64,000 nt of DNA from Diplolepis rosae (lineage: Eukaryota > Arthropoda > Insecta > Hymenoptera > Diplolepididae), in assembly GCA_030998225.1 (NCBI GenBank), contig JAPYXD010000686.1, positions 4,030,001 to 4,094,000 on the forward strand. Reading direction: 5' to 3'. Shown piece after piece: positions 10,892 to 28,539 of this stretch. The notes under the pieces are model-generated. The model was not told where the DNA came from. It was given only the letters and a program-made list of their open reading frames with translations, and made no database searches. The translations under genes were made by a program, and so were the position numbers. Numbering within the stretch: the first letter of the stretch is position 1; each line of letters begins with the position of its first letter.

Positions 10892-11039
10892 TGTCACGTC
10901 CCGCGACGCATTAGAATGTACTATAGGCATAGGCTAGGTCTAGAGAGAAATCTGGGGAAATTACTAAAAGAGAGAGAAAACCACCTATTGAAAAGAGAGG
11001 TATAACTACGTCACACGCAGCGGGAGACTGCGCAACGCG

Positions 11040-11067
11040 TGACGTCACCAAAAAATATAATATAAAA
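11040..11067 (+). promoter_or_regulatory. Likely LTR core promoter (CRE-like site and TATA box)
   Basis: TGACGTCA, a perfect CREB/ATF-type palindrome, is followed 8 bp later by TATAATATAAAA. The 3' LTR has CGACCTCA at the matching place (27926-27933), so the palindrome is broken there. Promoter function is inferred from position. Confidence 0.6.
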
Positions 11068-11257
11068 AGGACACGCCGCCAAGGGAAAACTAGTCTTGTG
11101 AGCAAAATTAAGTGCGGGAAATTTCTAAAATCTTAAAAGGATTCACAGCGTGAGATACGTGTTTAGTTCAGTTTTCCGAAGAAACGTGTCGTAAATTCTC
11201 TGATTGTACTTTCAATCTTTGAAAGGATATTAGAGTCAGTGTAGAGTGAAATAACTA

Positions 11258-11376
11258 TTCTTGTCCTCCTCACACCAGTGGGATATTTGTTTCTGTCTTC
11301 CTCACACCAGTGGGATACCTATTGCTGTCTTCGTCGCACCAGTGGAAGAATCTTTCTCTCTCCCTCACACCTGTGA
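11258..11376 (+). repeat. Short tandem array in the LTR, about 31-bp unit
   Basis: Four imperfect units centred on CCTCACACCAGTGGGAT occur in the R/U5-proximal LTR. The solo LTR at 53904-54755 has a looser version (CACACACTTGG, CACCTGTGGGGATCC). Function unknown. Confidence 0.75.
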
Positions 11377-11510
11377 GGATCATTCATAAAAAAGGGACTA
11401 TTCACAACTCAACAAAGGTACCGAAAATTCTCTCTATTCTTTACCTATTCCCTGTGCCATTGTTTGAATCATTGTAAAATTTTAACCTTGTTTATATCAG
11501 TGTTAATTTA

Positions 11511-11516
11511 AATAAA
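11511..11516 (+). terminator. Candidate polyadenylation signal AATAAA
   Basis: The same hexamer occurs in the 3' LTR at 28397-28402, where it could direct 3'-end formation of genomic RNA. Confidence 0.5.
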
Positions 11517-11580
11517 TTCAATTTGTATTACTTTACTAATCATTGTGTACTTTTCATTGACTTATCCTCATCCCTAAGAG

Positions 11581-11633
11581 AGGATCATTCGATCCTAACT
11601 TAAAACGAGGAATCTTCGATCAAAGTAAGTATT
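11581..11633 (+). promoter_or_regulatory. Conserved U5 hairpin and candidate 5' splice donor
   Basis: The perfect stem AGGATC-ATTC-GATCCT (11581-11596) is followed by CAAA|GTAAGT (donor 11624/11625), a near-consensus metazoan 5' splice site. This block is almost identical in the otherwise diverged solo LTR (54677-54730), implying constraint. It precedes gag and every downstream acceptor, so it could be the common donor for subgenomic mRNAs. Splicing is inferred. Confidence 0.6.
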
Positions 11634-11667
11634 TACGTACTTGTGACGTAACATACTTCCTTTTTTC

Positions 11668-11685
11668 TGGTGCATCGGCCGGGAA
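11668..11685 (+). other. Primer binding site for tRNA-Gly(GCC)
   Basis: TGGTGCATCGGCCGGGAA starts 14 nt after the LTR. It is complementary to the 3' end of insect tRNA-Gly(GCC), including the CCA tail, as I remember that tRNA. It would prime minus-strand DNA synthesis. A 14-nt gap is longer than the few bases common in this group. Confidence 0.85.
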
Positions 11686-12563
11686 ACACAAGTCAATTGA
11701 AATTGAACACATTGGTTCTTAATAATAAATAAATAAATAAATAAATGATTATGAAATATTATTTCAACTTTAAAACTTAAAATTTCAATAAAATAGATTT
11801 GTTAGATCACAAAGGGATTTGACCTTGAGGCTAACCTTAATGATTTAATAATCAGATCATTTCTTTGAAATTTTATAATTTATATAAATTGTTTAAAAAT
11901 AAAATAAGTTTGAAAAATCACGCAGGGATCTGACCTTGAGGCTAACCTAAGTGATTAAGTAACTTATCTTATTTAAAAAGATATTCTAATTTGTTAACCA
12001 AGTTTTGATTTAAGTTAAAACAAACATAAAAAACAGAATATTTTTATTTGCAAAAAAAAAAATTTTTGTCCAAAGATTTGCACTTAAGTTAACTTTTCCA
12101 ATATAATAAAAATAATTTATGAATATTTCGAATGATCATTATTATAAACAAATTTGTTTAATTGTTATAAACAATTTATAAATAAATAAAATAAATTATT
12201 TTAATTTTACATAAAGGGCACATGCAGTTGGTAAAGAAAAATATTTTATTATTTTAAGAAATTTATTATTAAAAATTATAAATTTACAAACAATTGAGCG
12301 ATTATTTATTTAATTTGAATATTTGAAATAATTATATTTTTATATCATTATTTTATTTTCAAATGACGAAATACAAATTTCATTTCAAATTATATTGTTA
12401 TTAAAAATAAATAAACAAATTACAAATAAATTTTACTAATCTCATTTTATTTTTCTTAAAAAACAAATTTTATATATAGTTCTTTTTATTGTTATAAACA
12501 AATTTAAAATAACAATAAACAATCAACGCTCAATACAAAATATTGTAAATTTATAATGACTCA
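11686..12563 (+). other. 5' leader of the retroelement
   Basis: About 880 nt of AT-rich untranslated sequence between the primer site and the gag ATG. It holds a pair of direct repeats (11807-11846, 11918-11956) and an AATA microsatellite near 11720. RNA packaging signals normally lie in such a region; none can be assigned here. Confidence 0.6.
11807..11956 (+). repeat. Direct repeat pair in the leader
   Basis: Two roughly 40-nt copies, about 110 nt apart, share GACCTTGAGGCTAACCT preceded by TCAC..AGGGAT and followed by GTGATT/ATGATT. They are the only GC-richer islands in this leader, which makes them candidates for conserved RNA elements. Confidence 0.7.
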
Positions 12564-14429
12564 ATGTCAAAACCAAATATCCCTTTAGAATCTACCCCGA
12601 AAGTTATAACACGTAGTCAAGCTAAACACGATAGTCAGCTTGCAAAAATAGTAGATTTGAATCAAAAGGGTAATTTAAAAATAAAACCAATTAGAAATAG
12701 AGAATATTCAACTGATAATAAATGCCAAAATATCCCTGATCCAATCCCTACAGAACAAGAATTAGATAACACTCTTAAGTTAGATGATTCAAGTTTAGAC
12801 AAGACTCTAATTAATAATCAAAATATATCACGTGAAAATTCAGAAAAAACTAGCGGGTTTCATTCAAGTTTCTGTCCAGATTTAAGCATTGTAACAGGAT
12901 CCAGTAATCAAGATCAAACTCTAACGAATGAATTATCTTATTTTGACGAATTCAATTTGCTAAGCTCAACAGTAATAACAGTAGATAATAAAACTTTGAA
13001 AGAAAGATTGGAAACCTCATTGGCACGCGAATCTATAATTAGTAACAACGATAGCGACGACGACAAAAGCGACACAGAAGCCATAAATCAGGATAATCCC
13101 GTAAGAGTAAATAACGAAGAGATGGCCGTGGTCATACCCAACAGCCAGCAGGTATCCTTACGCGACGCGCTAGAGGTGGTCCCATTGTTTGACGGAAGTA
13201 ACCTCCCATTGTCACATTTTATTGAGGGTTGCATGGAGGCAAAGGCAATGCTACCGACACCTGCAGCTCAAGAAAACCTCGCAAGGCTATTAAGAGGTAA
13301 ATTAACTGGAGAAGCCAGAAAATGCATTTTTGGTTCTACTTATACAACAATAGAAGAATTGATAGAAAAATTGAAAAGAGTATATGCCCCTGCGAAAAGC
13401 GTGTACCAGTTACAGGGAGAATTAGGTAATACATTTATGTGGGAAAGAGAAAATGTACTTTCCTATGCTGCTAGGATAAAAGAAATTGCCGACAAAATCG
13501 AAGATGCTCACAGGCTCAATAATAATGGTCAGGTAGATAATAATTTTAAAGTAAACCTTGAAAAAGACGTAATTCAATGTTTTATACGCGGTTTGCGTCC
13601 TGAGTTAGAAATTCGTGTTGAAGAAAAGGATACTTTTAAAGAAGTTATTAGCGACAGTATTGATATAGAACGAAGATTAGCTGCAAATTCCGCACTACGA
13701 AGAAATAAAAATATGGATTATTCAAAAAGTGACGAATCATCTAATAATAAAAATAACAAAACAACCCGATTTAACGTAGCACTTGAAAACAAAACTATTT
13801 GTTTAATTTGTAAAAAACCAGGTCACATAACTGAAAAATGTTTTCATTTAAGTAAAGCTCAAGATGCAGTTTTTAATAATAAACAAAAAAATTTTTTGTT
13901 GCGTCCTAACCAACAAGGATATAGTAATTTCAATGGTCAAAGAAGTAATAATAATAATAATTTTGCAAGAAACAATTACAATAATTTTTCGAATAACAAT
14001 TTTTTAAGAAATAAAAATCATAATTTTAATAACAATAACAATAATAATTTGCAAAATAGAAATAATAATTATAAAAACAATAATAATAATGTTTTACAAC
14101 AAAGACACAACAATAATAACAATTTTCCTAGAAATTTTTACAATAATAACAATAATGTTAATAATAATAATAGACAATGGAATCCAGGACAGTATCAAAA
14201 CTTTAACTTAGGACAGTCTCAAAATCGAAATAAACCATATGAATATAGGTTTTTACAAAATAATAATAATCAACAAAATTCAAATTATACTGAAGTAGTT
14301 TGCAATTATTGTAAAAAACCCGGTCATTTAGTACGAGACTGCAAGATACGACCAAATAGCCAATCACAAACAGCTCATCAGGAAAACTCCAAAGCTCTCC
14401 CCAGCACGGGTGCACTGAGGAAAGCATAA
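12564..14429 (+). CDS. gag: Gag polyprotein
   Basis: 621 residues. Residues about 195-375 look like a Ty3/gypsy capsid (VPLFDGS.LPLSHFIEGC, LARLLRGKLTGEARKCI, LQGELGNTFMWERENVLSYAARI). Two CCHC zinc knuckles for RNA binding lie at Cys413-Cys416-His421-Cys426 and Cys580-Cys583-His588-Cys593. Between them, about 445-575, is a strongly Asn-rich linker. Gag would form the particle shell and bind genomic RNA. The first 190 residues are polar and acidic with no recognised domain. The ATG at 12564 is the first one giving the full frame. The frame ends 70 nt inside the open pol frame, fitting -1 frameshift expression of pol. Confidence 0.95.
   Translation: MSKPNIPLESTPKVITRSQAKHDSQLAKIVDLNQKGNLKIKPIRNREYSTDNKCQNIPDPIPTEQELDNTLKLDDSSLDKTLINNQNISRENSEKTSGFHSSFCPDLSIVTGSSNQDQTLTNELSYFDEFNLLSSTVITVDNKTLKERLETSLARESIISNNDSDDDKSDTEAINQDNPVRVNNEEMAVVIPNSQQVSLRDALEVVPLFDGSNLPLSHFIEGCMEAKAMLPTPAAQENLARLLRGKLTGEARKCIFGSTYTTIEELIEKLKRVYAPAKSVYQLQGELGNTFMWERENVLSYAARIKEIADKIEDAHRLNNNGQVDNNFKVNLEKDVIQCFIRGLRPELEIRVEEKDTFKEVISDSIDIERRLAANSALRRNKNMDYSKSDESSNNKNNKTTRFNVALENKTICLICKKPGHITEKCFHLSKAQDAVFNNKQKNFLLRPNQQGYSNFNGQRSNNNNNFARNNYNNFSNNNFLRNKNHNFNNNNNNNLQNRNNNYKNNNNNVLQQRHNNNNNFPRNFYNNNNNVNNNNRQWNPGQYQNFNLGQSQNRNKPYEYRFLQNNNNQQNSNYTEVVCNYCKKPGHLVRDCKIRPNSQSQTAHQENSKALPSTGALRKA
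14360..14429 (+). promoter_or_regulatory. gag/pol overlap with candidate -1 frameshift site
   Basis: The pol frame is open from 14360, after a TAG at 14357-14359, so gag and pol overlap by 70 nt in the -1 relation. In gag phase, G GAA AAC at 14381-14387 is the most plausible slippery heptamer, but it is not canonical because its first three bases differ. No downstream stem-loop was verified. Confidence 0.5.
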
Positions 14430-17400
14430 ATCGAGAACCACTGGCATCCAATTCTAACGATCATACAACAACAACAATAAATATTTCAAAGTCCACTTCA
14501 ATTCCATCAATTATAATATCAACGGAAGGTTTAAAAAACCCAACACACATGATGATTGATACTGGTGCTGCTCGAAATTTAATTAAACAAAAGGTTCTCA
14601 ACCCTGAAGTACCAATAAATAGCCAAAACGTATTAAAACTTACAGGAATTAATGATTTACCACTTTACACATTAGGACAAGTAAAAATAAACATTTTTGG
14701 TTACCCAACAATATTTAACATTATTCCGAATGAAGTCCCAGTAGAAGAAGATGGAGTATTGGGATCAGAATTTTTTCAAGATAATAGAGTGAATATAAAC
14801 TATACTTCAAAATGCTTAGAAATTGAGAACCACTGTTACCCTTTTAAATCTACCAATACATTTACTATTCCAGCTCGAACAGTTACAACATTTTATGTTA
14901 ATATAAAAAATACAGAAAAGAGTGAAGGGTATGTACCTCGATTACATATCCAAGATGGCGTCTACGTAGGTGACGCAGTTGTAAAAAATCACAGAGGAAA
15001 AGCTTATTTAAAATTTGCAAACACAAATGAAATCCCAATTACATTATCCGTCCCATTAGTTAATTTAGAAGACTTTGAAGAACAAGAATGCTATAAACAA
15101 ATTGAAAATTTAATTAATTTCAAACAAACAAATAACGAAGATTTATCAAGTAAAATATTAAATAACTTTTTAAAAACTGACAATTCTCTAATTAACTCAT
15201 GCAAATTTTATAATGTAACAGACGAAGACAGAGTAGAATGTATTAAAAAACTTCTTCGATTAGACCATTTAAATCAAGATGAATATGAACATGTAGAAAA
15301 ATTAATTAAAAATAATGCAGACAGATTTCAAATCCCAGGAGAACCACTTGAAGCTACTAATGTATTACAACATTCAATTCCAACTGTAGATGACGCTCCT
15401 AATTTTTCAAGACAATATAGATTTCCCCCAGTTCACAAGGAAGAAATTACAAGACAAGTCGATGAATTATTAAAAAATAAAATAATCAAGCCCTCACAAT
15501 CACCATATAACACTCCAGTGTGGATAGTTCCTAAAAAACCTGATTCTCAAGGAAAAATAAAATGGAGAATGGTTCTTGATTTTCGTAAATTAAATGAAAA
15601 AACAATTGGCGATTCGTATCCTTTACCTAATATAAACGATATACTTGATTCTCTAGGATCAGCAAAATATTTTTCAGTGTTTGATTTAGCTACCGGTTTT
15701 CACCATATAAAAATGGATCCAAAAGACTCGCATAAAACCGCGTTTTCTACACCTCACGGTCATTACGAATTCGATAGAATGCCTTTCGGTTTAAAAACTG
15801 CACCTGCCACATTTCAAAGATTAATGGATTTAACATTAACTGGATTAATAGGAACGGAACTTTTTGTATATCTCGATGACATAGTTATATATGCAAATAC
15901 TCTAGAAGAGCACGAAATTAAATTTAACAATTTAGCAGAAAGACTTAGAAAAGCAAATCTTCACTTACAACCAGACAAATGCGAATTTTTACGACCTGAA
16001 GTAGGATATTTAGGTCATATAATTGATAAAAATGGAGTACGTCCAGATCCAAAAAAGATAATAGCTGTAAAAAACTTTCCAGTCCCAAAAACACAGAAAA
16101 ATGTTAAACAATTTTTAGGCTTAGCAGGATATTATAGACGATTTATTGATGGATTTTCAAAAATTGCAAGTCCTTTAAATCAACTTCTGAAAAAAGATAC
16201 ACCTTTTAATTGGACAGAAAAACAACAAGCAGCTTTCGAAATTTTAAAAGCAAAATTATGTGAAGAACCACTTTTACAACGACCTGATTTTTCTCAACCT
16301 TTTATACTCACAACAGATGCCTCAGGATTTGCAATAGGAGGTATTTTATCACAAGGTAAAATAGGTAAAGATAAGCCAATAGCATATGCTTCACGTAGTC
16401 TAAGTGATACTGAGAAAAAATATGATACATATGAGAAAGAAGCTCTTGCTATAATATTTTGTGTAACTCATTTTCGTCCTTATTTGTATGGGAGAAAATT
16501 TACTTTAGTGACTGATCACAAACCTCTAGTTTGGTTTCAAAATTCTAAAGACCCTTGTTCACGAGTTTCACGTTGGAGACTGAAACTCGCAGAATATGAT
16601 TTTGATGTAATTTACAAAGCAGGAAAAATGAATGTAAATGCAGACGCTCTCTCAAGAAACCCTATTGATGATAACAAAGAGAAATCAAGATATTTACAAG
16701 TTGACGCCAATGATACTTTTATGACTTCCCAAGAAAAAATGTTTTCAAAGAAAACTTTTACAAGAAAAAAACAAGAAAACTCTAAAAATGAGGTAAGACC
16801 TTCAAAACGAAGAAACTTGAATCCAGAAATCGTACCAGACGACGTAGATCGTTTTAGCGAAATTTCGGAAGCCCAAATATTAAATATCGACTCAAAAATC
16901 CCAGAATATTTCCAGGAATTTCTTAGTGAAGAATTATTTAGTGAGATTGGTAAGAATATTTTAAACTACACAAATTTATTCAAAAATATGGCTTCAAGAC
17001 TTAGTTTTATGACAATATTTTTATTAAGTCCAGTGTTTTCCAAAAAATACGAAAATTTATCATGGAAAACTATTACTACGAGAGCTCAAAAGAGAATAGA
17101 GCAAGAAAAAGCAAAAAATTTGAATCGAAACGAAACTCAAGAAAAATTAGACGACAATTTTTCTTCTAAACCTCTTATGAAAAAACCACGAGGTAGGCCA
17201 AGAAAAAATCTACTTACAAATTTGAAAAATATTCCCTCTCAAACAAAAAGAAAGAGAGGTAGGCCAAGAAAACAAATGTTTGAAAACGAATTACCAGAAA
17301 TAAATGTGCAAAAGGGAAGCCGAACAAAAGTAGAATCAGATTCCGACTCTGATCCTGATTATTTAGATTATTTGAAACAAACTCAAGCCAAAAATAAAAA

Positions 17401-19318
17401 GAAGAAGAATGCCAAGAAGCCAAAAAATATTAATGAATTTGAAAGTGAAGAAAGTGAGAATTATTTTTCAACCTCAGAAGATGAAATCAACGACATTGAA
17501 ACCTCACACGAAGGAAATGATGGAGAAAATTATGAAGAAAATTGGGAAGAGAATTTTGAAGATGATCTTGAAGACGATTTTGAAAAGAATTTCGAACAGA
17601 ATTTTGAAGAAAATTTTGAAGACAATCTTGAGGAAAATTTTGATGAGAAGTTTGAAGAAAACCAAGAAGAAAAATTGGAAGAAGAATTTGAAGAGCCTTA
17701 TTTTGAAGAAAATTTGAGATTAAACCGAAGATCTCAAATAAATTGTGAAAAAATCGATAAAGATCATGATAATTATAATCGTCCACCCCCAGAACCTCCT
17801 CCTATAAACTCTCAAACAGAAAAAATTATAACAAAGAAAAATTTAGTTGAATGTCGCGATCAATTAACTATGCGAAAAGATAATTATGCATATTTTGTTA
17901 CAACAAATGGAACTCCTCGCGACAACGGATCAAAAATTTTAGAAAAACGTGAAACTTTACCAAAATTTAAAAATTTACAAAAGGGGATAGCAAAAGAGAT
18001 TAAAAAAGGAAACTACTACCATTTTGCACTTCCAATTGAAGAAGAAACTAAAGATAATTTATCTGAAACTTTAAATAATATAAAATTATCAATTCATTCA
18101 TTACATGAATTATCTCAAAAATTTAAATTACGATCTATTAGTATATCAAAAACTTCCAGAATTAATCATATACCTTGGGAAGAAGTGAAATCAATTTTCG
18201 ATTCAATTTTTTCAAATTCAACTACAAAAATTATAGTTTGCAATGGAATAACGCAATATCCAACAAAGGAACAACGAACTCATTTAATTGAAGAAGCTCA
18301 CTCCTCAGCATTAGGAGGCCATAAAGGCGTTACAAAAACTTATAGCCGAATTCGCCAAAAATTTTTTTGGGAAAATATGAAAGTAGACATTCAAAAATAT
18401 ATTCAAGGCTGTTTACAATGTCAACTGAAAAAATTAATCAGAGTCAAAACAAAAAACCCTATGGTAATCACTGACACACCCACTACTGCTTTTGAAAAAA
18501 TATCAATGGACATTGTTGGTCCACTACCTGAAACAAAATCTGGTAACTTATATATTCTAACGATACAAGACAATTTTACCAAATATTCTTTAGCAATACC
18601 TCTTCCTAATCACCAAGCTAGTACGATAGCAGATGCTTTCGTGAAAAAATTTATTTGCATATTTGGATCACCGAAAGGAGTACTTACTGACCAAGGCAGA
18701 GATTTTTTAAGTAATTTATTAAAAAGATTGGCAAAACGTTTTAGAATTAAACAATTTCGTACCACAGCATTTCACCCTCAATCAAACGGGTCATTAGAAC
18801 GTTCACATCATGTTTTAGGAGAATATCTCAAACAATTTGTTGCAAAAAATTCAGAATGGGATGATTGGCTTGAACTAGCAATGTTCTCATATAATACTAG
18901 TGTACATGAAGGCACAAAATGCACACCCTATGAATTGGTTTTTGGTAAACTAGCTCGTGAACCTTCCAGTGAACCTTTATCACAACAAGAAAAATTACAA
19001 ACATATGACGATTATTTAATTAATTTCGTAACACAACTACATGAAATGCGAACACAAGCAAGAGAAAATCTTATTTCAGCAAAAGAAAAATCGAAATTAT
19101 ATTATGACAAAAAAATAAGTCCTTTAGAAGTAAAAATTGGAGATTACGTGTTTTTATTAAAAGGAGGAAAAATTAAAAAACTTGACAGCCATTATACAGG
19201 GCCTTATGAAATATTGGAAGTGTTAGGAAAAGGGAATGTCAAAATAAGCTATAAAGGCAAACCTACTGTTGTCCACATTAATAGACTAAAACGCTCACAT
19301 GTGCAAGTACAAAAGTAA
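14360..19318 (+). CDS. pol: Pol polyprotein: protease, reverse transcriptase, RNase H, integrase
   Basis: Open from 14360; the first ATG is 14549, and residues are numbered from it (1589 aa). An aspartic protease begins MMIDTGAARNLI (Asp4). Reverse transcriptase has DLATGFHHIKM and YLDD at 441-444. RNase H follows (TTDASG with Asp590, YEKEALAI, VTDHKPLVW). The integrase zinc domain uses His1251/His1258 and Cys1288/Cys1291, and its catalytic triad is Asp1321, Asp1381, Glu1417. A chromodomain-free tail ends in a GPYEILEVL-type motif. About 520 residues (712-1235) between RNase H and integrase are unlike normal gypsy pol: two AT-hook-like RGRPRK motifs near 878 and 900, then a Glu/Phe/Asn acidic repeat near 985-1055. 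All catalytic residues look intact. The first Met lies at the protease active site, so frameshift expression from gag is expected. Confidence 0.96.
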   Translation, partial: PITNSSSGKLQSSPQHGCTEESINREPLASNSNDHTTTTINISKSTSIPSIIISTEGLKNPTHMMIDTGAARNLIKQKVLNPEVPINSQNVLKLTGINDLPLYTLGQVKINIFGYPTIFNIIPNEVPVEEDGVLGSEFFQDNRVNINYTSKCLEIENHCYPFKSTNTFTIPARTVTTFYVNIKNTEKSEGYVPRLHIQDGVYVGDAVVKNHRGKAYLKFANTNEIPITLSVPLVNLEDFEEQECYKQIENLINFKQTNNEDLSSKILNNFLKTDNSLINSCKFYNVTDEDRVECIKKLLRLDHLNQDEYEHVEKLIKNNADRFQIPGEPLEATNVLQHSIPTVDDAPNFSRQYRFPPVHKEEITRQVDELLKNKIIKPSQSPYNTPVWIVPKKPDSQGKIKWRMVLDFRKLNEKTIGDSYPLPNINDILDSLGSAKYFSVFDLATGFHHIKMDPKDSHKTAFSTPHGHYEFDRMPFGLKTAPATFQRLMDLTLTGLIGTELFVYLDDIVIYANTLEEHEIKFNNLAERLRKANLHLQPDKCEFLRPEVGYLGHIIDKNGVRPDPKKIIAVKNFPVPKTQKNVKQFLGLAGYYRRFIDGFSKIASPLNQLLKKDTPFNWTEKQQAAFEILKAKLCEEPLLQRPDFSQPFILTTDASGFAIGGILSQGKIGKDKPIAYASRSLSDTEKKYDTYEKEALAIIFCVTHFRPYLYGRKFTLVTDHKPLVWFQNSKDPCSRVSRWRLKLAEYDFDVIYKAGKMNVNADALSRNPIDDNKEKSRYLQVDANDTFMTSQEKMFSKKTFTRKKQENSKNEVRPSKRRNLNPEIVPDDVDRFSEISEAQILNIDSKIPEYFQEFLSEELFSEIGKNILNYTNLFKNMASRLSFMTIFLLSPVFSKKYENLSWKTITTRAQKRIEQEKAKNLNRNETQEKLDDNFSSKPLMKKPRGRPRKNLLTNLKNIPSQTKRKRGRPRKQMFENELPEINVQKGSRTKVESDSDSDPDYLDYLKQTQAKNKKKKNAKKPKNINEFESEESENYFSTSEDEINDIETSHEGNDGENYEENWEENFEDDLEDDFEKNFEQNFEENFEDNLEENFDEKFEENQEEKLEEEFEEPYFEENLRLNRRSQINCEKIDKDHDNYNRPPPEPPPINSQTEKIITKKNLVECRDQLTMRKDNYAYFVTTNGTPRDNGSKILEKRETLPKFKNLQKGIAKEIKKGNYYHFALPIEEETKDNLSETLNNIKLSIHSLHELSQKFKLRSISISKTSRINHIPWEEVKSIFDSIFSNSTTKIIVCNGITQYPTKEQRTHLIEEAHSSALGGHKGVTKTYSRIRQKFFWENMKVDIQKYIQGCLQCQLKKLIRVKTKNPMVITDTPTTAFEKISMDIVGPLPETKSGNLYILTIQDNFTKYSLAIPLPNHQASTIADAFVKKFICIFGSPKGVLTDQGRDFLSNLLKRLAKRFRIKQFRTTAFHPQSNGSLERSHHVLGEYLKQFVAKNSEWDDWLELAMFSYNTSVHEGTKCTPYELVFGKLAREPSSEPLSQQEKLQTYDDYLINFVTQLHEMRTQARENLISAKEKSKLYYDKKISPLEVKIGDYVFLLKGGKIKKLDSHYTGPYEILEVLGKGNVKISYKGKPTVVHINRLKRSHVQVQK

Positions 19319-19567: not shown

Positions 19568-19849
19568 ATGGAACAAATTCATCGCAAACGCATAGATGAT
19601 CTCATTGAAATAGTTCCCTGTTTTATCGACATGGTAGCTCTCTGGCCATACTTAATTCAAACTGGAATTTTTAAGAAAGACGACTGCAATATCCCCACAT
19701 GGAACAGAAATCTAAACAATCCAGAAATAATAAAAGACATTTTTTCAACAATCAAAACAAGAGGACCGGACGCATACAAAAATTTAATTCTCAGTTTACG
19801 GCTATCAAATCACATTGTCATAGCCGACATGTTGGATATAATGAACTAG
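19568..19849 (+). CDS. CARD-like death-fold protein (candidate viral CARD-only protein)
   Basis: 93 residues, start to stop, with no other domain. The layout fits a caspase recruitment domain: an N-terminal HRKRIDDLIEIV helix, a hydrophobic ALWPYLIQTGIF segment, a charged middle, then IKTRGPDAYKNLILSLR followed by VIADMLDI. The RGP-x-AY-x-L...LR signature and its spacing match CARDs of insect initiator caspase Dronc as I know them. CARDs bind other CARDs to assemble the apoptosome; a CARD-only viral protein could compete in that step in the cytosol. That role is inference. It lies between pol and the glycoprotein gene with its own splice-acceptor-like site 5 nt upstream. I know of no CARD in a gypsy element. 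A chance helical protein is possible but less likely. Confidence 0.68.
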   Translation: MEQIHRKRIDDLIEIVPCFIDMVALWPYLIQTGIFKKDDCNIPTWNRNLNNPEIIKDIFSTIKTRGPDAYKNLILSLRLSNHIVIADMLDIMN

Positions 19850-19968: not shown

Positions 19969-21999
19969 ATGGGATTACGAGGCTTCCTTTTGGCACTGCT
20001 CACTTGCAACTTCAACTATATAACAACAGTCTACGCCATCATAGGATTCGATTGCGGTTCAAATCAATCAAATATTACGACATTATCTTTACTAGAGGTA
20101 GGAGAATGTGATCTACCTCGATCTCAAGTACATGTTGAAAGAACTTATATACAACTTTTACAATTAACTGGATTTTCAAATACAAAAGTAATACAATGCA
20201 AAATAGAAATTCGACGCGCCATCTCTCATTGTGGTATGCATTCTCACAGTTCCATAGTAGCAAATGGCCACAGTGAATATATACATGATGTTACACGAGA
20301 TCAATGTAATCAAATGCACACAATAGGAACATTTTTAGTAACCCCTACTCTTCAGATATCAAAGTTAAAAGTAAATGAAACTTCATTCCACAGTGTTACT
20401 TTAGAAGGTTCTGTAACACCTAATGGAGACTGTACTGGTACACAATTTTCTGACCCATACGGAACATGGAATAATGTCGTAGTCCAAGCAATATTCAAAA
20501 TAACTTTACAAGAACATTACGCGACTATTCATTTAAATTCAAATAAAATTCAATTAGGATCTGGAATAATATGCACACTTTCAGACACATTCTGTACTGA
20601 CGTAGAATATGGACAAACATTCTGGGATACATTACCTAATGACGTATGTAATTTTAACAAATATGAAATTATTTATGAAGGACCAGCAAATAAGACCTAT
20701 GACAACACGACAGACAATTCTGAAACCTTTTATTCTTTAACGACTGAGGATATAACTTTCGTACTAGCTGAAAAAACAAGAAAACCAGTTTGCAGTTACG
20801 TTTTAATACAAACCGAACATCCAAAATTATTAATTTTTGAAACCAGACCTGGGAATTCATTTTTAGAAAATAAACATTTAGAAGTTCAAAATATGGACAT
20901 TTTCACATACGTCAATTCTAAATTTATATATGTAGAACGACACATACGCACTGAAGTAAATAGACTTTATCACGATGTTCTTACTCAACGATGCATACTT
21001 GAACAGCAAGTTTTTAGAAATACATTAACCTTAGCAACCCAATCACCAGACGAATTTGCATATCATTTAATGAAAGGCCCAGGATATATGTCAGTAATTG
21101 CAGGAGAAGTAGTACATATCGTAAAATGTATACCGGTTGAAGTAAAATATCGCAAAACTGAAGAATGTTATCTACAACTACCAATATTTAGAGGAAATCA
21201 ATCCTTTTTCCTTTCTCCACAAACTCATATATTAACAAAATCAGGTATCCAAACAAATTGCAATTCTTTCCTTCCACCAATGTACCTTTTTGGAGAAACC
21301 TGGTACAAATTACTTCCAAATCCTGTCGAATCCATAGCACCAACTATAGTTAAACCTCTCACAAAAGCAACCTGGAAATACACAAATCCTTCATCCTTAG
21401 CAACAAGTGGCATTTATTCTCAATCTGATCTTGATAAACTGCGAGATCATATTATGTTTCCAGCAGAAAAACCAATGATTCTAAATTCTTTAGCTAGAGA
21501 AATAACAGGACATCCAACTATTAATCAAGGAATATCATTAACGAATTTATTTAATGAAGATGTAATTGATAAAATTGCTGAATCCGCATGGGGTAGATTT
21601 TGGACAATTTTTACAAGTTTTGGAACTACTAGTGCAGGCCTAATTGGATTAATAATAATAATTAGAGGGATTAAATTGATAGCTGATACCATTATTCATG
21701 GATATGCGCTACACAGATTATTTGGATGGTCTCTCCATCTACTAGGCGCCTTCTGGGATTCGGTCACTAACCTCTTATTACACTTAGGTACCCATCGACC
21801 TTCTGGACCTCCTGCTGAGAGTCATCAAGAACTGCTAACAGCTTCAGCACCACAAAGCTCGAAAGAGGCACCTAAAAGTCCATCGTATTACGCAAACACT
21901 ACTTCAGGTAAAGATCACAATAATACAAACACAACTCTTTATCCTCACTCTGAATTAAAAGAAGAACTTAGTAGAACCCACTACTCTTTCCAAATCTAA
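19969..21999 (+). CDS. Chuvirus-type surface glycoprotein
   Basis: 676 residues from the ATG at 19969. The frame is open back to an ATG at 19699, but 19969 follows a splice acceptor and starts a clear signal peptide (MGLRGFLLALLTC..., cleavage probably near residue 23). The ectodomain is Cys-rich with several N-glycosylation sequons. It carries ISHCGMHSHSS, SDPYGTWNNVVVQA, TEHPKL, DIFTYVNSKFIYVE, MKGPGYM, VVHIVKCIPVEV and LDKLRDHIMFPAEKP. I recognise these from glycoproteins of Chuviridae (negative-strand RNA viruses) and their endogenous insect copies, some of which travel with BEL/Pao elements. A membrane anchor lies near 553-575, with a second hydrophobic stretch (LFGWSLHLLGAFW) and a polar tail. 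It would sit in the envelope and mediate entry. No stop or frameshift is seen. Confidence 0.8.
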   Translation: MGLRGFLLALLTCNFNYITTVYAIIGFDCGSNQSNITTLSLLEVGECDLPRSQVHVERTYIQLLQLTGFSNTKVIQCKIEIRRAISHCGMHSHSSIVANGHSEYIHDVTRDQCNQMHTIGTFLVTPTLQISKLKVNETSFHSVTLEGSVTPNGDCTGTQFSDPYGTWNNVVVQAIFKITLQEHYATIHLNSNKIQLGSGIICTLSDTFCTDVEYGQTFWDTLPNDVCNFNKYEIIYEGPANKTYDNTTDNSETFYSLTTEDITFVLAEKTRKPVCSYVLIQTEHPKLLIFETRPGNSFLENKHLEVQNMDIFTYVNSKFIYVERHIRTEVNRLYHDVLTQRCILEQQVFRNTLTLATQSPDEFAYHLMKGPGYMSVIAGEVVHIVKCIPVEVKYRKTEECYLQLPIFRGNQSFFLSPQTHILTKSGIQTNCNSFLPPMYLFGETWYKLLPNPVESIAPTIVKPLTKATWKYTNPSSLATSGIYSQSDLDKLRDHIMFPAEKPMILNSLAREITGHPTINQGISLTNLFNEDVIDKIAESAWGRFWTIFTSFGTTSAGLIGLIIIIRGIKLIADTIIHGYALHRLFGWSLHLLGAFWDSVTNLLLHLGTHRPSGPPAESHQELLTASAPQSSKEAPKSPSYYANTTSGKDHNNTNTTLYPHSELKEELSRTHYSFQI

Positions 22000-22009: not shown

Positions 22010-22747
22010 ATGTCGCATGTTCCTTTTACAACCTTACTAAACAAAATTATTCAACAAAGAGGAGATCCACCCCTGATTTATGAGATACTCATTGAACAAA
22101 CCAATAATAATGAATGTCTATTTCACGTTAATTTACAATATAAAAATTATATAATAATGAATAGTGGCAAAGATAAAGAAAATGTAAAGCAAAAGGTAGC
22201 ACAAAATTTATATAATGCCTTAATTAATGAATCAAAGGAAACAAATCAAAACGTCCAACCAAACTCTATTAGTAAAAATTGCATAAAATTAAACGAAATT
22301 TGCACTGAAAATAAATTTGAGTATCCAAAATATACAGTATTACGAATAAAAACCTCATCAAAAGACTCAACATACATAGCAATTTGTTTCATTAATAACA
22401 TTAAACAAATAGGAATAGCAAACTCAATAAAAACAGCTAAGGATTTTGCTGCCATAAAAGTTATTAATTCTCTTTCGCATAAAGACGAGAAATGTGAACT
22501 ACGTTTGATAAACTCACTAGAACATTTGCATGTAACAATTCAAGAATCATCTATAAACGATCCAAAACCTTCAACGAGTAGCCAAATAACAAAACCTATT
22601 ACTTCAAATAACAATCGTGATAAAAATACAAATTCATATAAAATGAAAACAAATAATAATCATACTGCATCATCTTTCTCTACGAAAAGCTTTAAAAAAT
22701 GTTTTAAATGCGGATATAGACCTCCCAACCAGTACAATAAATTCTAA
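22010..22747 (+). CDS. Protein with two dsRNA-binding-domain-like folds
   Basis: 245 residues. Two segments follow the dsRBD order helix, PxY strand, two strands, closing helix. The first (about 5-70) has LLNKIIQQRGDPPLIYEIL and ends KQKVAQNLYNAL. The second (about 90-155) has YPKYTVLRI and ends AKDFAAIKVINSL, matching the AKxxAA...L closing helix. The C-terminus has CFKCG, like the first half of a zinc knuckle, then stops after PPNQYNKF without the His and last Cys, so the knuckle may be truncated. dsRBD proteins bind double-stranded RNA in the cytosol. In viruses they often shield RNA from Dicer, so suppression of RNA interference is a plausible but unproven role. The gene begins 10 nt after the glycoprotein stop. 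Confidence 0.65.
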   Translation: MSHVPFTTLLNKIIQQRGDPPLIYEILIEQTNNNECLFHVNLQYKNYIIMNSGKDKENVKQKVAQNLYNALINESKETNQNVQPNSISKNCIKLNEICTENKFEYPKYTVLRIKTSSKDSTYIAICFINNIKQIGIANSIKTAKDFAAIKVINSLSHKDEKCELRLINSLEHLHVTIQESSINDPKPSTSSQITKPITSNNNRDKNTNSYKMKTNNNHTASSFSTKSFKKCFKCGYRPPNQYNKF

Positions 22748-22784: not shown

Positions 22785-23369
22785 ATGGAGCATTACTACG
22801 ACGAGCCTACACACGTACCAAGTTACCCAAAAAAGAAATACAGAACAGACTCCATGGGATTTTTAAATCATGTAGAAATTTTAAGAAACTTCACGATAAA
22901 ATATGGACTGCCGTTACCGCAATATACAGTCTATCCTGATCCGAATTCGAAAACAAACTCATTTTTTCTCGCACAAATTAATATAAATGAACATTTCGTT
23001 ATACAAGCCGGCCCTACTAGTGAATTAGCAGAAAATAGAGCAGCTTTAAAATTATTATTGCTACTAATAAGATCATACGATCTCTGCGACGAAAAATTTT
23101 ATAATAATGATGATAAAAAAAGGCAAAAAACCAAAAATCAAAGTATTCAAACCGATCCAAGACCAAAATTAATACCTTGGGAAAATTCCTGTAGATTTTG
23201 TAACACTCAAATGCATGCTACAAAAGAGTGCCGTAGACGAAATATTTTTAAAGTAGACAAATCAACCCAATTTCCCCCTCCAGTTCCACCAAGAAACTCC
23301 TCAACATTTAGTAGACTTTTTTCCCCTTTTCTCCAAAAAACTTCTAGACCTAAATCCAACCATATGTAA
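22785..23369 (+). CDS. dsRBD plus CCHC zinc-knuckle protein
   Basis: 194 residues. About 25-105 forms one dsRBD-like unit: VEILRNFTIKYGLPLPQYTV, then strands with FLAQININEHFVIQAG, closing with SELAENRAALKLLLLL. The closing helix keeps the Ala pair but lacks the Lys-Lys usual at its start, so RNA affinity could be weaker. A CCHC knuckle, CRFCNTQMHATKEC, follows near 144-157, spaced Cys-x2-Cys-x4-His-x4-Cys as in retroviral nucleocapsids. A proline-rich tail (FPPPVPPR) follows. The same domain order recurs in the protein at 26894-27343, so the two are probably duplicates. Binding of dsRNA or viral RNA is inferred. Confidence 0.65.
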   Translation: MEHYYDEPTHVPSYPKKKYRTDSMGFLNHVEILRNFTIKYGLPLPQYTVYPDPNSKTNSFFLAQININEHFVIQAGPTSELAENRAALKLLLLLIRSYDLCDEKFYNNDDKKRQKTKNQSIQTDPRPKLIPWENSCRFCNTQMHATKECRRRNIFKVDKSTQFPPPVPPRNSSTFSRLFSPFLQKTSRPKSNHM

Positions 23370-23393
23370 ACATCCTATTTTATCCAATATTAA

Positions 23394-23412: not shown

Positions 23413-23428
23413 CCTTCCGAGAAGCCTA

Positions 23429-25211
23429 ATGAATTTCCTTAATCAACTAGCATCCAGAGTGTATTTAATTTTAATTCCACTCCTTTTCTCCAAAGCAGAA
23501 AAATACTTCATAGACTCACAATTTTCTCATTCTTCAGGGATTTATTTTGAACCAATTTCAAAAGTTCGTCTTTTTTTCTGAAAAATATCATTTTATATCT
23601 TATATCGATATCTTTCAGCCAGACGTACTTAAATACAAAATAATAGATTTCTCACATAAATTATATGAATATTGCATACTCTCAAATATTGCCAATAATT
23701 GTAATTTATACGATCATCAGACACAACTTGATTTTATAGAACAACGCATCAACTATTTTCTTGAAGAAATATCATTTATATCTAGACAAGCTCGTAATAT
23801 CACGAATATTTCTAACACTAATGATCCATTCTTGCAACAGATACAAAAAGTACTTTTAGAATTAAGAATGAGAAATGAAACCTCCCTTTACTGGCCCAAA
23901 GAAAATTTATTTCTACTTCCTAATCCATTTTTCCAAAAAGTTACAAATCTTTCTTCAAAACTTGACAACATTATGACCTACAAAAAATGGCATAATTCTC
24001 AAAAAGATCCAAATATTCACCTATATCGAATATTAGCAGCAAATTGGCTTAAAGACCTGCATGAAATTTCTCAATCTTTTCTTTTACTCCTTGACCAACT
24101 TACAGAAGCTATTACTCATGCCGCAACTAATTTATGGCACCCTATGCTACTTCCTGATACCTTCTTAGACTTCAAATCCAACAAAGAAGACCCACACCTT
24201 TCAACATCCCTTTTTTCTATGGTCCTTCCATTTTCTAAAATACAATACTTCTTATTCGATAAGTACTTGATTTTTATTATGACTATACCAATCCCATCTG
24301 CTGAAGAATTTCAATTATTTAAACCACATCCAATTCCAATACATCTCGATTTTAATACTGACGTAATTTCCTCTATTTACATAAAACCTCAAAATTCTTA
24401 TCTCGCTATTTCTTCAAATAACCAATCATACTTTATAACAAATGAAAATTTCCTCAATGCATGTTATCAAAATGGATTCCAAACATTTTGTCACCCACCA
24501 AGATCTATATCTAACATCGATAACAATCCTATTTGTGAAACATCAATGTTTCTAAATTATCAACCATACAAGTGTAAAATATTCATCAGTTTTAGCGAAT
24601 ATCCCTTTCTAACACCATTGCAATTTCATCATGGATGGCTATACTCAACAATTTTCCCCCGACAAATTTTCTTATCATGTCGAAAAAACTCTAAGACCAT
24701 AATCACACTCCAAGGAATAGGAATTTTGCAAACAAAATCAGGTTGCAATCTAGATTCATCAACTCCATATTACCATCTTCAAAACCATTTGAATATAATG
24801 GATAATTCAATTCCAGTCAGCAAATCAACTACTTCCCTTGCTATAATTTCACCATTTTTATATAATATTTCCATTCAAGAGCCTCACTTACTAAAAAAGG
24901 TATTACTTCTTCTTCAGCAAAAAGAAGACATGCCATTATCAATCTTCGAAAACCATGTCTTTATCCTTACAAAATATGCAAACATTCAAAAAATCATTCC
25001 ATCAATTTTTATTTCTAGTGCACATAAATTAACATTAGCACTAATCTTTATCACTTTACTTATGATTACAATTTTAGGATTATTACTATTGAAAATTCAA
25101 AAAATATCTAAAAAAATAAACAAAACGCCAACACGTATAGAACTTATACAAAAAACTCCTTTAAGCTCAGTGACAAAACCTTTACTGACCGACTTGACGT
25201 TTAACTTTTGA
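23429..25211 (+). pseudogene. env: Errantivirus/baculovirus-F-like envelope protein, frame-broken near its start
   Basis: The ATG at 23429 opens a 50-codon frame with a signal-peptide-like segment (VYLILIPLLFS) and GIYFEPISKVRLF, ending in TGA at 23579-23581. The rest lies in another frame, open with an ATG at 23547 (554 residues) to 25211. The frames meet at a run of seven Ts near 23571-23577, so a one-base length difference or slippage separates them. The long part has the errantivirus Env layout: an IFIMTIPIPSAEEFQLFKPHPIPI block, spaced cysteines, a Cys-rich C-terminal half (LSCRKNSKTIITLQGIGIL) and a membrane segment at about 495-517 of that frame with a short basic tail. This family is related to baculovirus F fusion proteins. 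A RQAR (RxxR) motif near residue 80 is a possible cleavage site. It is the second, unrelated envelope gene of the element. Confidence 0.78.
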
Positions 25212-25547: not shown

Positions 25548-25955
25548 ATGATACCAACTCCAAGTGAACCTATTGTTAACCATCTTGGACCAGTAGACGG
25601 TGTATGTCCGCAAGACTATCCGATAGCATACGCGCACTTATTACAGAGTTATTGCTTCGAATTAGAACCCTCAACATTGTTTTTATATTATAATCACCAA
25701 ACCACAAAAAGATATTGCCAATTCTGTTTCGAGAAATTAGATCAGGAAACTCAAAATAACTGTGAATTTTTTACATCATGGCATTCCATTTGTAAATTGG
25801 AATGCATATATATGAATTGTTACGGTTGTCAAGAACTATTAATTACTCCGCGAAAAAGAGCAGCTGATTGTAGAGAATGTATCGAACAATATTTAAATTA
25901 TAAATTCGAAATTAGTCAAGGAAACGAAGTTCTAGTAGAAAATACCCCTGCATGA
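25548..25955 (+). CDS. Cysteine-rich protein 1 (paralogue of 26095-26526)
   Basis: 135 residues, not recognised as a known family. Paired cysteines suggest zinc binding: YCQFC, CKLEC, CYGC and CREC, with HSIC between. The last part reads CIYMNCYGCQELLITPRKRAADCRECIEQYL, compressed here as Cys-x5-Cys-x2-Cys...Arg-x-Arg-Ala-x2-Cys-x2-Cys. The same end pattern occurs in the next gene, so the two arose by duplication. No signal peptide or membrane segment, so nuclear or cytosolic. A treble-clef or RING-like fold or a transcriptional regulator are possibilities, with no direct evidence. Confidence 0.6.
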   Translation: MIPTPSEPIVNHLGPVDGVCPQDYPIAYAHLLQSYCFELEPSTLFLYYNHQTTKRYCQFCFEKLDQETQNNCEFFTSWHSICKLECIYMNCYGCQELLITPRKRAADCRECIEQYLNYKFEISQGNEVLVENTPA

Positions 25956-26094
25956 TTATATATATCTACCTTCCACGCATGTAATCACGCATGAAAAATT
26001 TTGTTAAATTTAATAAAATCCTTAATACTAAAAAATTGTAAATTTTACAAATATTTCAAATTCCTTAAATATTGTAAATTTCCCCAACAGAAAA
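25956..26094 (+). other. Spacer with repeated AAATTTT motifs
   Basis: Short AT-rich gap between the paralogous Cys-rich genes, ending in a splice acceptor. Confidence 0.4.
26079..26090 (+). promoter_or_regulatory. Candidate 3' splice site for Cys-rich protein 2
   Basis: TTTCCCCAACAG ends 4 nt before the ATG at 26095. Confidence 0.5.
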
Positions 26095-26526
26095 ATGCTG
26101 CCCCAAGAAATCGAAACAATCGAAGCAGAAGAAGTTCGAGCAAGCGAGCAGGATGTTCAGCCGTATTTTGAAAATCAATTATGGTCAGAATACTGCTGCA
26201 CAACCCTGGTCGAGAATTTTTACATGAATGTTCTCGAAAAAAAACTTGTTTGCGAGGATTGTTGGATGACAGAACTCAGCTTTTTCGAAACCGAAGTAAC
26301 ATTACCCGTCCGAATAGACCACATAGTTACTAAAGACTTATATTGTACATTAAAACTATCTAGCCTCGACTGCTCCATTTGCAATATACAAATTCTTTAC
26401 ATGCGGCAAAGAGCAGATTTATGTGTAACTTGTGCCGAACGTGTAATTCATTTATACCAACAAGAAGCACTGTATAACGACGTCGATTCCGAAGCATCGA
26501 CTATTATTTATAACAACGACGAATAA
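26095..26526 (+). CDS. Cysteine-rich protein 2
   Basis: 143 residues, acidic at both ends. It shares the cysteine skeleton of the preceding gene: CEDC aligns with CQFC, then LYCTLKL..LDCSICNIQIL..RQRADLCVTCAERVI aligns with its CKLEC...CYGC...RAADCRECIEQ block. An extra CC pair lies near residue 34. The fold is unknown; probable zinc ligands come in two C-x2-C pairs plus flanking cysteines. Divergence from its paralogue, with only the skeleton kept, implies both have been under selection for structure. Confidence 0.6.
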   Translation: MLPQEIETIEAEEVRASEQDVQPYFENQLWSEYCCTTLVENFYMNVLEKKLVCEDCWMTELSFFETEVTLPVRIDHIVTKDLYCTLKLSSLDCSICNIQILYMRQRADLCVTCAERVIHLYQQEALYNDVDSEASTIIYNNDE

Positions 26527-26893
26527 AAATAATAAATCAAAACATATTTTTTATTATTCTTTTTTCTAAATATAAACAATATCTATTAGTAACTTTTGTT
26601 AAAAAATTTTCCCTTTTAATTTTTATTCGTTGTTTAAAATCATATTTCATATACACCACTACTTCTTCCTTAACCGCTATAATGTAACGACAAACCTTAA
26701 TAAATTAAAATATTCTAAAAAACGGACCACTGTTTTCTCTGCATGAAATATCTCTTTGAGTTAGGAAACGCGGAAAGTGAATATATCAACAAACACAAAA
26801 TTATTACAAAAAAAAAAAAAACTAACTAACTTTAGAATTTCAATAAATTCAATCATCAACTCAAACAGGTAATTCTTTTGCAGATCAAAAACA
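26527..26893 (+). other. Spacer before the third dsRBD gene
   Basis: 367 nt, AT-rich, with an A-run near 26808-26820. No gene; ends in a splice acceptor. Confidence 0.4.
26870..26883 (+). promoter_or_regulatory. Candidate 3' splice site for dsRBD protein 3
   Basis: TAATTCTTTTGCAG ends 10 nt before the ATG at 26894. Confidence 0.5.
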
Positions 26894-27343
26894 ATGGCCT
26901 TGCAGACAAGAGACCTATCGAAAGGCACTGCTGTACAAGTTTTAAACGAGATAAGCATTGAGTATGATTTCTCCGAACCTTCGTATATTGTAAAATCGCT
27001 TGGAAAACACCAAGAACTGCCACCATTCCAAGCAACTTGCGAAATCTTTAAAAATAAAATAACTTTCTCTTGTATTGGGGAACCAGCCCCTCAAAAAAAG
27101 TCTGCAAAGCAAAATGCAGCATCTAAACTCTTGGAAATGCTTTCCACAAGATATGTATTTTTAGAAGAAATGAAAGAAAAAAGCTTAATCCCAGAAACGA
27201 GAATTTTCAAAATAACTGATGAAATCAGTAAAGAAACCTTACAAAAATGGACCAACTCTTGTGAAAGGTGTTTTCAAAGAGGGCATTTAGCTCATAACTG
27301 CCGCAATCCTTTACGTAATAGAAAATATAAAAATAATTCTTAA
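26894..27343 (+). CDS. dsRBD plus CCHC zinc-knuckle protein, second copy
   Basis: 149 residues. One dsRBD (about 10-90): VLNEISIEYDFSEPSYIV, FQATCEIFKNKITFSCIGE, then KKSAKQNAASKLLEML. That last helix is a textbook dsRBD end, with the Lys-Lys-x-Ala-Lys-x2-Ala-Ala pattern that contacts the RNA backbone. It is followed near 124-137 by a complete CCHC knuckle, CERCFQRGHLAHNC. Of the three dsRBD genes here this is the most canonical. It is the last gene before the polypurine tract. A role in binding viral dsRNA or countering Dicer-2 is inferred from parallels with insect virus dsRBD proteins; RNA packaging is an alternative because of the knuckle. Confidence 0.75.
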   Translation: MALQTRDLSKGTAVQVLNEISIEYDFSEPSYIVKSLGKHQELPPFQATCEIFKNKITFSCIGEPAPQKKSAKQNAASKLLEMLSTRYVFLEEMKEKSLIPETRIFKITDEISKETLQKWTNSCERCFQRGHLAHNCRNPLRNRKYKNNS

Positions 27344-27766
27344 AAATCTACATTATGAAATTACGTTACAGTTTTATATATTATTATATTACATGATATT
27401 TATAATTTACGAATATGAAATAAAAATTATTGATGTATTTAGTTATATAAGAAAAAATCATATGTAACCTTATGTTAAGTTCATACTATTTCAAAAAAAA
27501 AAAAACTATGTAATTATTTATAGCAAAAAAAATTATAATATTTAGATAATATAAATTTTTATGACATCAAAAAAAAAAAAAAAAAAAAAAAATCGATATT
27601 GGAATCAAATAGTCAAATGCAAAAAATACAAATTGTAAAAGAGACCCCGAAATGAATGGGGGTTATTACGTCAGAAATAGAAATTCAATGTATCTTCAAA
27701 AACATTAACGAATGTATTCTTCTTCCGAAGATTCGATCGCGGATGCTTCACCCCCGCGCTCGAACT
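27344..27766 (+). other. 3' untranslated region of the retroelement
   Basis: AT-rich with A-runs (27496-27506, 27569-27591). No gene. Confidence 0.5.
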
Positions 27767-27777
27767 AGGGGGGGAGG
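27767..27777 (+). other. Polypurine tract
   Basis: AGGGGGGGAGG lies directly against the 3' LTR. This is the expected primer for plus-strand DNA synthesis. Confidence 0.9.
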
Positions 27778-28539
27778 TGTCACGTCCCGCGACGCATTAG
27801 AATGTACTATAGACGTAGGCTAGGTCTAGAGAGAAATCTGGGGAAATTACTAAAAGAGAGAGAGAACCACTTATTGAAAAGAGAGGTACAACTACGTCAC
27901 ACGCAGCGGGAGACTGCGCAACGCGCGACCTCACCAAAAAATATAATATAAAAAGGACACGCCGCCAAGGGAAAACTAGTCTTGTGAGCAAAATTAAGTG
28001 CGGGAAATTTCTAAAATCTTAAAAGGATTCACAGCGTGAGATACGTGTTTAGTTCAGTTTTCCGAAGAAACGTGTCGTAAATTCTCTGATTGTACTTTCA
28101 ATCTTTGAAAGGATCTTAGAGTCAGTGTAGAGTGAAATAACTATTCTTGTCCTCCTCACACCAGTGGGATATTTGTTTCTGTCTTCCTCACACCAGTGGG
28201 ATACCTATTGCTGTCTTCGTCGCACCAGTGGAAGAATCTTTCTCTCTCCCTCACACCTGTGAGGATCATTCATAAAAAAGGGACTATTCACAACTCAACA
28301 AAGGTACCGAAAATTCTCTCTATTCTTTACCTATTCCCTGTGCCATTGTTTGAATCATTGTAAAATTTTAACCTTGTTTATATCAGTGTTAATTTAAATA
28401 AATTCAATTTGTATTACTTTACTAATCATTGTGTACTTTTCATTGACTTATCCTCATCCCTAAGAGAGGATCATTCGATCCTAACTTAAAACGAGGAATC
28501 TTCGATCAAAGTAAGTATTTACGTACTTGTGACGTAACA
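27778..28539 (+). repeat. 3' LTR, 762 bp
   Basis: Same length as the 5' LTR, 8 substitutions in its first 340 bp and none after. Flanked on the right by the CAGT duplication, where the Polinton arm resumes. Confidence 0.97.

Follow-up and report, generated by a model that had tools for sequence, protein, structure and literature searches.

Errantiviruses produce 4-bp target duplications, and accessory genes are generally regarded as typical of the complex retroviruses of vertebrates. Here we describe a Ty3/gypsy element of the hymenopteran Diplolepis rosae that carries eight sense-strand reading frames 3' of pol. It occupies positions 10892-28539 of a 64,000-nucleotide (nt) stretch of contig JAPYXD010000686.1 (assembly GCA_030998225.1, positions 4,030,001 to 4,094,000, forward strand), which we call the window. 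Like errantiviruses, the element has Ty3/gypsy gag-pol and an F-type Env, and it shares the 4-bp target duplication mentioned above, but it adds a class III glycoprotein, three frames with double-stranded RNA (dsRNA)-binding domains (dsRBD1 to dsRBD3), two Cys-rich frames (Cys1 and Cys2) and one CARD-like frame, and reaches 17.6 kb.

Errantiviruses such as ZAM and Idefix carry env as a third frame after Ty3/gypsy gag-pol and make the F-type Env from spliced RNA (PMC12992720). Anakin, a mosquito BEL/Pao element with a captured chuvirus glycoprotein (PMC7642597), is likewise an insect long terminal repeat (LTR) retroelement with a glycoprotein of chuvirus type, whereas here it is a gypsy element that carries the glycoprotein, and does so beside an F-type Env. 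Mosquito gypsy elements with type III fusion glycoproteins (PMC13172572) share the class III type of glycoprotein; the passages on them name no second Env or accessory genes such as those of the present element. In Hymenoptera, Gypsy fragments were found near chuvirus glycoproteins in 2023, and that study reports no clear evidence of capture by Gypsy (PMC10084718). Large size and extra domains or accessory frames are also seen in the giant planarian gypsy elements called Burro, which have a BCL2 domain, and in foamy-like fish retroviruses of up to 17 kb (PMC6431247); Burro differs from the present element in its giant polyprotein, its env between gag and pol and its gene set. Rotifer elements carry varied third frames (PMC5408684). 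In the titles, beginnings of abstracts and passages covered, whose scope did not include the broadest survey (doi 10.7554/eLife.108449), we found no gypsy element that has two unrelated envelopes together with dsRBD and Cys-rich frames.

We propose that this endogenous retrovirus is of the infectious insect type and acquired a class III glycoprotein beside an older F-type Env, and that its set of RNA-binding accessory proteins is most likely directed against RNA interference (RNAi). We give this reading, in which the functions are predicted from sequence, a probability of about 0.6. If true, it would provide an independent case, in an invertebrate, of an element that has two entry proteins of unrelated kinds and a dsRNA-binding gene set of its own. 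It would also make it testable whether retroelements encode suppressors with which they counter small-RNA silencing, and whether the displacement of F-type Env by class III proteins is a recurrent event. The element may illustrate how retroelements of invertebrates arm themselves against their hosts.

The provirus and its downstream frames

Positions 10892-28539 are a single full-length Ty3/gypsy provirus of a multi-copy endogenous retrovirus family. The first-pass annotation, made from the DNA letters, had listed LTRs, a primer site, gag, pol, a polypurine tract and eight sense frames after pol, and all of these were recovered by coordinates and domain matches. The features, with the donor-like site and the flanks, are as follows.

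10888..10891, unstranded: target-site duplication CAGT, left copy
10892..11653, + strand: 5' LTR, TG...CA, by repeat search and alignment
11625..11630, + strand: GTAAGT donor-like site in the 5' LTR
11668..11685, + strand: primer-binding site, 18 nt
12564..14429, + strand: gag, 621 amino acids, CCHC zinc knuckle, by domain matches
14549..19318, + strand: pol, 1589 amino acids, with protease motif, reverse transcriptase (RT), RNase H and integrase, by domain matches
19568..19849, + strand: CARD-like frame, 93 amino acids, weak
19969..21999, + strand: chuvirus-type fusion glycoprotein (gp), by Pfam profile; open frame listed from 19699
22010..22747, + strand: dsRBD1, 245 amino acids, two dsRNA-binding domains and a truncated zinc-knuckle-like end
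22785..23369, + strand: dsRBD2, 194 amino acids, dsRNA-binding domain and CxxC-x4-H-x4-C pattern
23413..25211, + strand: F-type Env region; acceptor-like site (first exon base 23413), signal-peptide-like start 23429 and, in another frame, the main frame 23514-25211
25548..25955, + strand: Cys1, 135 amino acids, eight zinc-ligand-like C/H positions
26095..26526, + strand: Cys2, 143 amino acids, related to Cys1
26894..27343, + strand: dsRBD3, 149 amino acids, dsRNA-binding domain and zinc knuckle
27767..27777, + strand: polypurine tract, a purine run directly before the 3' LTR
27778..28539, + strand: 3' LTR, TG...CA, by repeat search and alignment
28540..28543, unstranded: target-site duplication CAGT, right copy
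32706..34626, - strand: inverted copy of both flanks without the provirus

The anatomy of Metaviridae, that is LTRs, primer site, polypurine tract and a short target duplication, was found in full. The LTR pair is 98.8% alike, with 9 mismatches and no gaps in a 765-nt aligned block, and the primer site is complementary to what we take to be the 3' end of tRNA-Gly(GCC). RVT_1, RNase H and integrase follow one another in the order of Ty3/gypsy elements and the RT is closest to Ty3; among 211 matching solved sequences pol was nearest to Ty3 (E=2.4e-126), with retroviruses far below. The open frame of pol begins at 14360, still inside the 3' end of gag, so that a frame change is needed for pol. 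The charged linker of 495 amino acids between RNase H and integrase holds two AT-hook-like GRPRK motifs (17189-17272), which might bear on target choice. Both LTRs contain tandem repeats of about 32 nt (11245-11345 and 28131-28231), the leader between primer site and gag has two 65-nt direct repeats that are 82% alike (11787-11962), and at 53904-54757 lies a solo LTR from a related family, flanked by TAAT, whose ends are 91-94% alike and whose middle is different.

The insertion was also visible from outside. The left flank (9645-10786) recurs inverted at 34626-33483 with 99.3% identity and, adjoining this copy, the right flank (28540-29315) recurs inverted at 33481-32706 with 99.9% identity; this provirus-free copy of both flanks supports a single insertion. 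About 100 nt of left flank right at the insertion point are missing from it as well. The copy may represent an unoccupied site that has a small deletion, or one from which the provirus was lost; alternatively, the assembler could have joined in a second haplotype here.

We compared the lengths of the frames behind pol with chance. The sense stop-to-stop frames in 19319-27766 measure 774, 565, 262, 240, 164, 156, 136 and 99 codons, and the longest antisense frame there measures 109. When the sequence was shuffled 300 times by single bases, the longest frame per shuffle averaged 90 codons (95th percentile 119, highest 156). The gp, env, dsRBD1, dsRBD2 and Cys2 frames are longer than every shuffle maximum, dsRBD3 (156 codons) equals the highest and Cys1 (136) exceeds 95% of the maxima; seven of the eight thus beat 95% of shuffle maxima, and the CARD frame (99 codons) lies within chance by length alone.

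Protein searches were made only with the glycoprotein, dsRBD1 and the Cys frames as queries. On other contigs dsRBD1 has 36 relatives (68-99% identity) and the Cys1/Cys2 pair 69. Among these 105 proteins are five that run across adjacent frames, each time in the order found in the window: P0165 joins gp to dsRBD1, P0162, P0163 and P0166 join dsRBD1 to dsRBD2, and P0142 runs from dsRBD1 through dsRBD2 to Env. These five have the appearance of damaged copies in which deletions or frame changes fused the frames, and would thereby reveal which frames are neighbours. P0131 and P0167 occur on longest contigs of equal size (7,902), as do P0212 and P0222 (3,147) and P0210 and P0220 (4,429), suggesting that the members of each of these three pairs share contigs. 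Other copies attest gp, dsRBD1, dsRBD2, Cys1, Cys2 and, through the one protein P0142, Env; CARD and dsRBD3, neither of them used as a protein query, were not seen in other copies. The lists of relatives hold predicted proteins only, so that broken copies are under-counted and the openness of the relatives is partly a selection effect.

The order-keeping proteins and the 69 Cys relatives support the earlier claim that the extra frames belong to the element. That they are instead separate insertions or a local chimera could be argued from the post-pol region of about 8 kb, which is unusual for insect endogenous retroviruses, and from the two frames unseen in other copies. This is very improbable, as the window's frame order is kept elsewhere, dsRBD1 and the Cys frames have 105 relatives, there is one LTR pair and one target duplication, all eight frames are on the sense strand, and a search for repeats (seed 16, minimum 40 nt) detected no pair of them within 19-27.7 kb. 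Nested insertion was rejected on the same gene order in other copies and on the repeat search. Scans of viral contigs and genome contigs, and a tblastn search of plasmids with the glycoprotein, found no relatives with DNA context. The comparison with lentiviruses or spumaviruses drawn in the first-pass annotation holds as an analogy, in view of the several downstream frames, the in-element duplication and the acceptor-like sites before starts, but nothing shows homology to their accessory genes.

Two envelope proteins

The glycoprotein matches the Pfam family Monjiviricetes_fusion (PF24664) with E=5.7e-247 over profile positions 6-649 of 653, and its alignment with 14 of its 317 relatives has invariant Cys columns, as is proper to the chuvirus type. 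Chuviruses are a family of RNA viruses. Against solved structures there was no match at E 1. The glycoprotein frame of the earlier annotation is thus present, but its start is most likely at 19969 and not at 19699, because a hydrophobic signal-peptide-like stretch lies there, P0011 starts there, and an acceptor-like site stands 2 nt upstream. Seventeen of the 120 listed relatives are named: 15 come from Hymenoptera, one carries the name of a Hymenopteran chu-related virus and the last the plain label "hypothetical protein". A quick maximum-likelihood tree was built from the window glycoprotein and the 120 listed relatives, with Shimodaira-Hasegawa-like approximate likelihood ratio test (SH-aLRT) values and no bootstrap; in it the window glycoprotein grouped with P0011 and P0012 apart from the named relatives (SH-aLRT 100, stem of 0.5 changes per column). 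About 225 chuvirus-like glycoprotein relics have been described in 19 ant genomes (PMC6540820), and some of these may be pieces of such elements.

The second envelope protein is an F-type Env downstream of pol, as in errantiviruses, with several frames lying between pol and env. Its frame matches Baculo_F (E=1.2e-17), and this match is confined to profile positions 292-587 of 609. Compared with Baculo_F by themselves, the first 230 residues gave no match, and Env had none among solved structures at E 1. The main frame opens at 23514 and has no ATG in its first 107 codons, the first being at 23868. At 23429 there is a start that resembles a signal peptide; it lies in a different frame, 16 nt behind an acceptor-like site that is strong (13 of 14 pyrimidines). 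As this start is out of frame with the main frame, this copy of env seems to be broken by a frameshift. The Env frame first annotated here stands as an F-type match, but its start appears to be cut off by the frameshift.

We also scanned env for a fusion-peptide consensus taken from PMC6085415, a scan in which no positive-control Env was included; the best block fits 2 of 6 fixed positions in any of the three env frames. In that paper itself the block occurs in only one of the silkworm Envs, so its absence is no bar to an insect retrovirus. A furin site followed by a fusion peptide was not found in Env, whose sole RxxR has no hydrophobic stretch behind it. A comparable situation exists in group I alphabaculoviruses, in which GP64 does entry and the F-like protein has lost its fusion role (PMC4864199). 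The element resembles them in that its F homologue, which lacks a working cleavage site, is accompanied by another fusion protein; it differs in that they are DNA viruses and that GP64 is unlike the chuvirus glycoprotein.

It could be argued that both envelope proteins work, for different cells or steps, and that env is merely broken in this copy. The Env main frame is open over 554 codons and has C-terminal hydrophobic segments, the acceptor-like site before its signal-peptide-like start is strong (13 of 14 pyrimidines), and in P0142 a 76-residue stretch of Env is retained with 91% identity. We nevertheless consider this rather unlikely, given the best fusion-peptide block of 2/6, the RxxR without hydrophobic follow-up, the Pfam match limited to 292-587 of 609 and the 230 unmatched residues at the start. 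We favor the view that entry would be the work of the class III glycoprotein.

dsRBD, Cys-rich and CARD-like frames

Pfam dsRBD E-values are 3.8e-10, 6.1e-4 and 8.5e-7 for dsRBD1, dsRBD2 and dsRBD3. Measured by PF00035 (cut-off 23 bits), dsRBD1 (40.6) and dsRBD3 (29.9) lie above and dsRBD2 (20.8) below. The truncated knuckle-like end of dsRBD1 is common to most of its aligned relatives, and the knuckle of dsRBD3 matches Pfam zf-CCHC_3 with 23.8 bits, under the cut-off of 27. The dsRBD2 and dsRBD3 proteins are alike over both of their parts (BLASTP E=2e-5), suggesting that one probably arose from the other by duplication within the element. Among solved chains, the single sequence of dsRBD1 had five weak matches, the nearest being Loquacious/R2D2 (E 0.007-0.06), and dsRBD3 was nearest, again weakly, to a Dicer homologue (E=0.0014). 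PHROGs gave one weak match, to dsRBD1 (E=0.026).

The main rival to RNAi shielding is RNA export or packaging: the dsRBD/zinc-knuckle proteins would serve the nuclear export or packaging of unspliced genomic RNA, like Rev or the CERV protein of the worm element Cer1. The Gag-like zinc-knuckle pattern of dsRBD2 and dsRBD3 (zf-CCHC_3 in dsRBD3, below its cut-off) fits such a role, a heavily spliced element must export intron-holding RNA, and CERV has been reported to be required for export (PMC10309623). However, the dsRBD is a domain for dsRNA, and the nearest solved chains, weak as all of them are, are Dicer or Dicer partners. We regard export or packaging as a serious competitor that is nonetheless the less probable of the two, and keep RNAi shielding as the preferred role of these proteins.

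The two Cys-rich proteins resemble each other in the C-terminal part (E=0.004 in a single comparison, 24% identity overall) and have the same order of ligand-like residues. We measured conservation in 28 of the 69 relatives, mostly longer ones. In Cys1 (14 relatives) the ligands were unchanged in 107 of 112 cells, compared with 1376 of 1684 other non-Cys cells (Fisher p=2.2e-5); the remaining cysteines of Cys1 were likewise well conserved (49 of 55), so that cysteine as such accounts for part of the ligand effect. Against Pfam the Cys1 family gave only stray weak matches, each in 1 of 15 members, and the best match of the Cys profile among solved structures, the RPB12 zinc ribbon, was not significant (E=0.54). 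Membership in LIM or RING was weighed from ligand spacing and is not claimed. P0231 was not counted as a join of Cys1 and Cys2, its second part matching only with E=0.018.

In the CARD-like frame the structure model is helical, with low confidence, and CARD chains are among the best but weak fold matches. The call made in the first annotation is consistent with these weak profile and fold matches, but the frame stays below the Pfam cut-off and its length is within chance.

The interrupted env, and the many relatives that are fragments, would also fit a decaying element whose extra frames are functionless passengers. We think this improbable: the frames are much longer than chance, all ligands of Cys1 are kept in P0191 at 64% identity, and the LTRs are 98.8% alike.

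Expression signals and proposed mechanism

Foamy viruses are known to have a splice donor within the LTR. In this element the sense GTRAGT sites occur only in the LTRs, at 11625 and, as its 3' copy, at 28511. The stretch before the donor (11030-11624, the left limit being our choice) has no sense ATG, compared with 9.9 expected, and none of 2000 single-base shuffles was free of ATG; the antisense strand has 8. Behind pol we counted 12 acceptor-like sites, with 5.5 expected, and in gag-pol 2, with 3.2 expected. For five of the 12 the next ATG starts an accessory frame (p=0.005), and four frames are served in this way: gp from 19967, dsRBD1 from both 21746 and 21788, env from 23413 and Cys1 from 25509. 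When the env start, which was chosen post hoc, is left out, 4 of 12 fit (p=0.022). Acceptor-like sites before CARD, dsRBD2, Cys2 and dsRBD3 appear only when the limit is set at 7 to 9 pyrimidines of 14, barely above chance. This pattern suggests splicing from the LTR donor to post-pol acceptors.

In the mechanism that we propose, the genomic RNA would start in the 5' LTR, and an ATG-free leader exon ending at the LTR donor would be spliced to the acceptors that precede gp, dsRBD1, env and Cys1 to produce subgenomic mRNAs. The working entry protein would be the class III glycoprotein. The F-type Env would be the older one, its fusion role lost or changed, by analogy with F in the group I baculoviruses that use GP64. 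The dsRBD/zinc-knuckle proteins may bind the element's RNA and shield it from RNAi of the Dicer-2 type, Cys1 and Cys2 would be zinc proteins, perhaps regulators of transcription, and the CARD-like protein, if real, would blunt cell-death signalling.

A number of results weigh against this proposal. We saw no canonical slippery heptamer where gag and pol overlap, and the apparent frameshift in env has been mentioned. The dsRBD2 protein is below the Pfam cut-off and is without the usual basic patch, so that not all three dsRBD frames need bind RNA, and the family profile of dsRBD1 had no match among solved structures at E 0.1. The Cys2 ligands show no extra conservation (88 of 107 compared with 1383 of 1739 other cells in 14 relatives, p=0.30), and the structure model of the Cys family failed (predicted local distance difference test score, pLDDT, 42). 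The CARD frame reaches only 15.5 bits against Pfam PF00619, whose cut-off is 23.9 (E=0.018). As to splicing, the lack of GTRAGT in the 16.1-kb interior (0 compared with 2.7 expected) is not significant, since 16 of 200 shuffles also had none. Seven of the 12 acceptor-like sites precede no accessory start, and two of the five fitting ones serve the same frame. With looser pyrimidine limits 4 of 15 (p=0.048) or 6 of 28 (p=0.046) fit, so that the excess is marginal.

The proposal can be carried further. The element would then be an independent complex retrovirus in an insect, in which a chuvirus class III glycoprotein replaced the F-type fusion protein, repeating the GP64/F swap of baculoviruses, and in which dsRNA-binding suppressors of RNAi, zinc-finger regulators and a CARD-only decoy of cell death evolved partly by internal duplication, all expressed from mRNAs spliced at the LTR donor. 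We offer this fuller version tentatively, as a picture that is more doubtful than the proposal itself.

Elsewhere in the window, a search of Rfam at gathering scores gave no matches and a search for tRNA genes found none; a search of NCBIfam gave nothing above cut-off. Remains of a mariner-like transposase, with matches to the Mos1 helix-turn-helix and to Transposase_1, lie at 973-1969.

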